From positions 1 to 31,729 of the IMG/VR virus record IMGVR_UViG_3300036852_000182: a DNA stretch of 31,729 nucleotides; one strand, written 5' to 3'. Below are positions 1,916 through 2,161 of this stretch, piece after piece. Each line of letters starts with the position of its first letter. Position 1 is the first letter of the stretch. Source of the DNA: a virus. Position numbers and translations under genes: made by a program. The notes under the pieces were generated by a model. The model searched no databases. It was given only the letters and a program-made list of their open reading frames with translations, and was not told the DNA's origin.

Positions 1916-1991
1916 TGGTACACCTAGCTGGACTCGAACCAGCAATATCAAACTTAGGAGGTTTGCGCCTTGTCCATTAGGCCATAGGTGT
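1916..1991 (-). tRNA. tRNA-Arg(CCU)
   Basis: The minus strand folds as a full cloverleaf: acceptor ACACCTA/TAGGTGT, T8, D stem GCCT/AGGC, anticodon stem CAAAC/GTTTG with loop CTCCTAA giving anticodon CCU (reads AGG), T stem GCTGG/CCAGC with loop TTCGAGT, discriminator A, and an encoded CCA. It lies five bases after the class II tRNA and 14 bases before the next start codon, so tRNA processing must cut the polycistronic transcript here. Confidence 0.93.
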
Positions 1992-1996
1992 AAAAG

Positions 1997-2091
1997 TGGT
2001 AGACCCACTAGGACTCGAACCTAGATCTTGCGCCAATCTAGCGCCATGCCGGGGTATAAGTCCGGTGCTTTACCAATTAAGCTATAGGTCC
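1997..2091 (-). tRNA. Class II tRNA with UAU anticodon (isotype uncertain)
   Basis: Cloverleaf with acceptor GGACCTA/TGGGTCT (two G-U pairs), D stem GCTT/AAGC with GG in the loop, T stem CTAGG/CCTAG with loop TTCGAGT, discriminator A and an encoded CCA. The anticodon stem CCGG/CCGG has an A-C mismatch next to the loop, and the seven-base loop CTTATAC gives UAU. The variable region is about 24 nt with a GCGC/GCGC stem, a class II feature of Leu, Ser or Tyr tRNAs rather than Ile. An alternative hairpin CTAGAT/ATCTAG competes with the T stem. It may be a Leu- or Tyr-type tRNA with a shifted anticodon, or a tRNA-like RNA with another role. Confidence 0.8.
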
Positions 2092-2098
2092 AAATCTT

Positions 2099-2161
2099 GG
2101 GTAGGACAAGTTTTCGAAAGAGGACTAGTTATTAGATAACCCTCCGTCTTCGGTCCTTCCC
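2099..2161 (-). ncRNA. Candidate Y RNA (Ro60-binding hairpin)
   Basis: The 63-nt minus-strand RNA folds with its ends paired: GGGAAGGAC (2161-2153) with GTCCTACCC (2107-2099), one A-A mismatch. Next is an asymmetric loop, 5' CGAA opposite 3' GAAAACTT. Then come a second helix GACGGAGG/CCTCTTTC, whose G-U pair exists only on this strand, and an apical hairpin GTTAT-CTA-ATAAC. The 5' side GGACCGAAG and 3' side ACTTGTCC resemble the conserved Ro-binding site of metazoan Y RNAs (GGUCCGAAG and ACUUGACU) with a compensatory pair change and the same bulged C. It lies one gene block upstream of the Ro60 gene, three bases after the stop of gene 2548-2165 and seven before a tRNA, so RNase P could form its 3' end. 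Confidence 0.72.

Follow-up and report, generated by a model that had tools for sequence, protein, structure and literature searches.

Ro60 binds the lower stem of Y RNAs, and the sbRNAs are homologues of vertebrate Y RNAs, with which they have the UUAUC loop motif in common (PMC4726728). In D. radiodurans, Rsr is tethered to PNPase by a Y RNA (PMC7790460, PMC8394870). For the bacterial and phage Y RNAs of the YrlA type, two papers (PMC9569102 and PMC8394870) cite Chen et al. 2014; YrlA is a circularly permuted tRNA (PMC11472068). A review calls the Y RNAs of bacteria and animals non-homologous.

Like YrlA (Rfam RF02553; structure 6CU1), for which phage carriers are known, the Y RNAs described here lie beside a Ro60/Rsr gene and have a lower stem with a bulged C. 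Nevertheless, the tRNA-like domain belongs to YrlA alone, and the Y RNAs of this locus have real tRNA genes abutting them instead. Y RNAs beside Ro60 are already known in phages and bacteria; the weight of the finding lies in the recurrent abutment of Y RNAs to tRNAs in phages and in the unpermuted tRNA/Y RNA chimeras.

Y RNAs, tRNAs and Ro60 in the window

The window, that is, the whole stretch of 31.7 kb of DNA that was analysed, was assigned to a tailed phage from its terminase, portal and major head protein matches. All of its Y RNA, tRNA and Ro60 elements lie on the minus strand and include four short Y RNAs and four tRNA genes (Table 1). Their order is tRNA-His, Y3, small ORFs, Y2, tRNA-Trp, Y4, a 65-aa ORF, a 127-aa ORF, Y1, the UAU class II tRNA, tRNA-Arg(CCU), a 68-aa ORF, a 63-aa ORF and Ro60, which runs up to the contig edge. 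A nucleotide search of phage records with the window gave no match, and neither did a single-sequence protein search of viral contigs, in place of which an alignment query was used.

From the protein that it encodes, the gene between 1508 and the contig edge is assigned to Ro60 with certainty. The TROVE (E 7.5e-42) and Ro60 vWA (E 5.9e-35) domains were detected with Pfam, the comparison with the D. radiodurans Rsr structure gave an E of 1e-98 (phmmer), and the DxSxS motif of the vWA domain was invariant in an alignment of 12 members. The gene lies on the Y1 strand, about 600 nt downstream of Y1.

Table 1. Features of the window and copies of the tRNA/Y RNA chimera in related loci
Feature	Position	Strand	Evidence or remark
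Ro60 ortholog (TROVE + vWA with DxSxS)	1..1508	-	Pfam, PDB, alignment; cut by contig end
63-aa ORF between tRNAs and Ro60, no assigned function	1505..1696	-	
68-aa ORF	1696..1902	-	ATG at 1902, GAGG just 5' of ATG; start ~13 nt past tRNA-Arg
tRNA-Arg(CCU), encoded CCA	1916..1991	-	ARAGORN; Rfam tRNA 67 bits
Class II tRNA, anticodon UAU (called Ile), 95 nt, long variable arm, encoded CCA	1997..2091	-	ARAGORN; Rfam tRNA 58.7 bits
Y1, short Y RNA	2099..2161	-	R3 45.6 bits, E 1e-9; R1 56 bits; RF01656 23.4 bits
127-aa ORF	2165..2548	-	stop codon adjoins Y1 5' end
65-aa ORF between Y4 and 127-aa ORF	2545..2742	-	
Y4, short Y RNA, 10 nt 3' of tRNA-Trp	2756..2825	-	R3 23.3 bits, E 5e-4; absent from all training sets
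tRNA-Trp (CCA anticodon), encoded CCA	2836..2907	-	ARAGORN; Rfam tRNA 32.2 bits
Y2, short Y RNA, 3 nt 5' of tRNA-Trp	2911..2971	-	R3 46.4 bits, E 6e-10; upper-helix pairs 8/8
Y3, short Y RNA, 4 nt 3' of tRNA-His	3246..3309	-	R3 26.9 bits, E 6e-5; absent from all training sets
tRNA-His(GUG)	3314..3390	-	ARAGORN; Rfam tRNA below gathering; encoded CCA absent
Chimera copies	L018:3507-3632; L019:4560-4688; L101:6987-7115; L042:3671-3808		
Chimera copies	L016:4569-4693 and 4761-4883; L105:8121-8246 and 8250-8382		
Chimera copies	L098:2555-2681; L100:12462-12584	-	
Chimera copies, by locus	L123, L125, L137, L159, L180, L183		

The sequence-only reading had pointed out a single Y RNA candidate followed in tandem by a class II tRNA and a tRNA-Arg, with gaps of 7 and 5 bases and a CCA encoded by both tRNAs. 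This observation was confirmed and is bigger than noted, the locus holding four Y RNAs and not one. Both tRNAs were called on the same strand by ARAGORN and the Rfam tRNA model, both end in an encoded CCA, and the gaps span 2098-2092 (7 nt, Y1 to the UAU tRNA) and 1996-1992 (5 nt, UAU tRNA to tRNA-Arg). Its identity as a Y RNA is well supported for the candidate, the R3 score and E-value having been obtained with a model built solely from other loci. Y2, Y3 and Y4 had been overlooked, and each of them adjoins tRNA-Trp or tRNA-His.

Rfam, consulted before any model was built, gave at 2162-2099 a single match outside the tRNA family, to RF01656 of the nematode sbRNAs and Y RNAs (E 0.071). Its 23.4 bits fall short of the gathering cut-off of 38 bits, as does the score of the best relative (L105, 33.9 bits). 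The R3 covariance model comprised 14 members, with the window sequences excluded; the tool itself describes the E-values of such models as rough. When the 31.7 kb window was scanned with R3, no site besides the four minus-strand Y RNAs was found at E < 1. A structure descriptor (GGNCC[GA]A, a bulged C, an upper helix of at least 7 pairs, and UUGNCC) gave 51 matches across 119 loci, often near Ro60, where shuffled sets averaged 6.0. The count is not unbiased, since a sequence pattern taken from this same RNA had been used to retrieve some of the loci. Across 17 aligned members, 93.1% of the helix cells were paired, and double changes were seen in 71 cells (23.7 in shuffles); pairing fell to 35-48% when the alignment was slid. 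In the 92 Ro60-anchored loci, all 86 Y RNA matches were on the Ro60 strand and 59 of them lay at most 1 kb upstream of Ro60; at least one match was present in 46 of these loci. A first motif scan, which was not stringent and matched the two strands equally often, was dropped, and the evidence is that of the structure-based searches alone.

The lower stem is GGAC-C-GA/UUGUCC in Y1 and GGGC-C-GA/UUGUCC in Y2, plus outer pairs, and its bulged C was invariant in the alignment; in Y1 the stem reads GGACCGAAG / CUUGUCC, with one A-A mismatch in the outer part. Both Y1 and Y2 have the lower stem of about 7 bp, the single bulged C and the opposite-strand bulge that define Y RNAs (PMC4726728), and are encoded with a Ro60 ortholog. 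The loop begins with UUAUC in Y1, Y3 and Y4 and with UUACC in Y2. No match was found when the window was searched with RF02553 (YrlA), and the window Y RNAs have short loops and neither the T arm nor the D arm of the YrlA tRNA-like domain.

In the predicted fold of 2975-2756, Y2, tRNA-Trp and Y4 formed separate modules; the minimum-energy fold of 2165-1916 did not show the UAU tRNA cloverleaf. This tRNA has an A-C mismatch at the base of the anticodon loop, and an isoleucine-type anticodon despite its long variable arm. Its reading as a degenerate tRNA/Y chimera was rejected, its anticodon arm being devoid of a Y stem. The tRNA-His has a 5-bp D stem, no obvious G at -1 and a poor tRNA-model score. 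In the ORFs counted, AUA accounted for 25% of the Ile codons and AGG for 19% of the Arg codons.

Abutting tRNAs and unpermuted chimeras in related loci

Abutment was defined as a gap of -8 to 12 nt between a Y RNA and a tRNA. Every Y RNA of the window (4/4) has a tRNA edge 3-10 nt away. Among the 54 Y RNAs of tRNA-bearing viral loci, 17 abutted a tRNA, against 1.85 expected from random local shifts (maximum 7 in 2000), and when the window was excluded the count was 13 of 50 (1.3 expected; maximum 6 in 5000 shifts). The attachment of real tRNA genes to the Y RNA, which had been claimed for Y1, is well supported and is seen again in other Ro60 phages, well beyond chance expectation. The sandwich of Y2, tRNA-Trp and Y4 is matched in L088 (Y, 3 nt, tRNA-Pro, Y; 4669-4906). 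Gordonia phage Forza (L005) has the series tmRNA, 0 nt, Y, 4 nt, tRNA-Arg, a Y RNA stands 4 nt before tRNA-Lys in L115, and one follows tRNA-Asp in Streptomyces phage StarPlatinum (L006); L093, L075, L039 and L042 are further abutting loci. Abutment to real tRNAs was rare in the bacterial genome stretches (2/29 against 0.5 expected), and one of these two cases, L121, is a viral contig.

In the same loci, 81 of 236 tRNA-tRNA gaps (34%) were of 12 nt or less, compared with the 31% of Y RNAs that lay within 12 nt of a tRNA. Since Y RNAs are spaced much like the tRNAs in arrays, compact packing explains part of the abutment. Furthermore, in loci with tRNAs or chimeras, 50 of the 85 Y RNAs abutted neither, and tRNA-adjacent processing is therefore not obligatory.

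Some other RNAs of these loci deserve mention. A short Y RNA lies 17 nt upstream of the phage tmRNA gene in two loci (L118:12043-12108 and, on the minus strand, L107:1180-1245). A Pistol ribozyme match of 56.8 bits (L004:5473-5529) was found between tRNA-Trp and tRNA-Gln in the tRNA array of Gordonia phage GMA2. A 209-nt pseudo tRNA-OTHER, annotated in Rhodococcus phage Trina (L008:2643-2851) immediately upstream of Ro, may be a Y RNA or YrlA mistaken for a tRNA.

Additionally, several loci contained chimeras to which the tRNA model gave 43-46 bits although 61-63 nt stand in for the anticodon arm. In order, they consist of the acceptor 5' strand, the D arm, the Y upper 3' strand, CUUGCCC and a short closing loop such as GCAA, followed by GGGCCGAAG, the Y upper 5' strand, UUAUC, a variable part, the T arm, the acceptor 3' strand and, in some copies, CCA (L018, L019, L101, L042). 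In seven aligned copies, 94.5% of the cells were paired, with 38 double-change cells against 12.8 in shuffles; all acceptor cells were paired, with covariation in 6 of the 7 acceptor pairs. The descriptor check was passed by 26 of 29 selected copies, including some from genome records that bear the names Armatimonadetes, Oscillochloris, Chloroflexi and Abditibacterium. Of the matches to which the chimera model gave low scores, several were ordinary tRNAs or doubtful. Y RNAs abutted chimeras as well (19/44 against 1.5 expected), and in L014, which is among the closest Ro60 relatives of the window, the order is Y, chimera (CCA), Y, chimera (CCA), Ro60.

Judged by their sequences and pairing, the chimeras are an unpermuted form, related to the known YrlA by circular permutation, in which the putative Ro-binding Y stem serves as the anticodon arm. 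They have no Rfam family, and no description of them was found in the literature searched (PMC4201824, PMC6047535 and PMC10870794 lay outside the search); it is for these two reasons that they are considered novel. Their reading as misread neighbouring YrlA units was rejected, given that the acceptor halves pair 7/7 within one unit, and was also ruled out by the loops of 3-6 nt (e.g., GCAA) that close the Y stem and by L018, which has no flanking YrlA half. The RNA of mycobacteriophage I3 was rejected as a chimera and left out of the count because it is a permuted YrlA.

Proposed processing and its alternatives

The arrangement suggests that the Y RNAs are made by the machinery that excises tRNAs. 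The 5' ends of tRNAs are made by RNase P, and the cut proposed earlier, in which RNase P would release the 3' end of the Y RNA by cleaving where the tRNA begins, is plausible and fits the geometry of Y1 and Y2. This release is not the whole story, because two of the four window Y RNAs sit 3' of a tRNA and many elsewhere have no tRNA neighbour.

The explanation that we favour, and hold to be fairly probable as a whole, is that of a Y/tRNA/Ro60 operon with one transcript, in which the enzymes of tRNA ends act as punctuation and the freed Y RNAs bind Ro60. The single long transcript would start at one of two promoter-like sites (3560-3531 or 3165-3137) and would be cut by the tRNA end-processing enzymes. 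RNase P, cleaving at the 5' end of the UAU tRNA and of tRNA-Trp, would leave Y1 and Y2 with 3' tails of 7 and 3 nt, and 3'-end processing of tRNA-His and tRNA-Trp would give Y3 and Y4 their 5' ends. The remaining Y RNA ends would require other nucleases or trimming, so that the RNase P step would cover half of the Y RNAs, one end each. Once freed, the Y RNAs could bind the phage Ro60 via the lower stem that carries the bulged C and, as in D. radiodurans, form a lid on the Ro60 ring or a tether for it, and the tRNAs of the window would provide rare codons during infection. On the minus strand between 1400 and 4000, no promoter-like site was found besides these two, and none downstream of 3137, but such scans mean little here (6 sites found against 3.4 expected). 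No terminator-like site was found on this strand from 3249 to 1456.

The same layout would be seen if the Y RNAs were independent, closely packed genes, each either equipped with a promoter or terminator of its own or trimmed by general RNases, and if the abutment reflected compact genomes and a shared habit of lying upstream of Ro60. Packing alone could suffice, short tRNA-tRNA gaps being as frequent as Y-tRNA abutment, and many Y RNAs are solitary or stand in Y-only arrays, such as the three in L098. Nevertheless, we regard this as rather unlikely: the abutment exceeds what local shifts predict about tenfold, and the minus strand has neither a promoter-like nor a terminator-like site beside Y1, Y2 and Y4. 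It seems quite improbable that Ro60 acts in cis instead, docking on a Y-tRNA precursor at its Y part and inspecting, protecting or holding the tRNA for degradation, with the chimeras as the fixed form. Structured RNA is acted on by Ro60 and PNPase (PMC7790460, PMC8394870), and chimeras that join the tRNA acceptor, D and T arms to a Ro-binding arm are present in bacterial genomes and in loci closely related to this one; however, the tRNAs of the window are ordinary and have no Y arm.

The idea that the four elements are not Y RNAs and arose as chance intergenic hairpins is scarcely credible. It could draw on the modest scores of Y3 (26.9 bits) and Y4 (23.3 bits), but it is opposed by the descriptor matches (51 against 6.0 in shuffles), the covariation, the strand bias and the leave-window-out model, which already excludes it for Y1 and Y2.

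A wider proposal, which we offer tentatively as quite possible and would not call probable, is that the Y RNAs of Ro60 phages and some bacteria form a branch of the tRNA world. They would be freed from tRNA precursors by the enzymes that process tRNAs, and a second class would consist of unpermuted tRNA bodies, some with CCA, that carry the Y stem as the anticodon arm and represent the missing form between tRNA and permuted YrlA. A tRNA with a Y arm, later circularly permuted, is a possible origin of the tRNA mimicry of YrlA. The biogenesis of bacterial Y RNAs is little known, and the link between Y RNA and tRNA genes, together with the tRNA bodies bearing a Ro arm, offers a testable excision route. 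The layout is the same in the culturable Gordonia phage Forza and Streptomyces phage StarPlatinum, which makes it testable now.

Comparison with known systems

Among phages of Mycobacterium, Streptomyces and Gordonia (347 Ro-like protein records), the likeness lies in a full-length Ro60 encoded by large, tRNA-rich phages, whose Ro-like proteins share no more than about 45% identity with the window Ro60 over the full length. YrlA is a permuted tRNA (PMC11472068), whereas the chimeras of the window relatives are unpermuted.

The animal Y RNAs and nematode sbRNAs (RF01656) have in common with the window Y RNAs the GGNCCGA / CUUGNCC lower stem, the upper helix and the UUAUC start of the loop. They differ in length, at 83-112 nt for animal Y RNAs (PMC4030889) against about 63 nt in the window, where the Y RNAs are phage-borne and lack a poly-U tail. 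Short phage Y RNAs scored 23-34 bits against RF01656, with up to 33.9 bits (E 0.003) among L105, L101 and L018. The UUAUC loop and the stem layout common to short phage and animal Y RNAs bear on the kinship of both groups.

Punctuation of polycistronic transcripts by tRNAs is known from mitochondria and from the stable RNAs in the phage T4 tRNA cluster. The window resembles these systems in its non-tRNA RNAs between tRNAs, its very short gaps and its one apparent operon. It differs from them in that, as read here from sequence alone, the cargo would be a Y RNA beside its own Ro60 gene.
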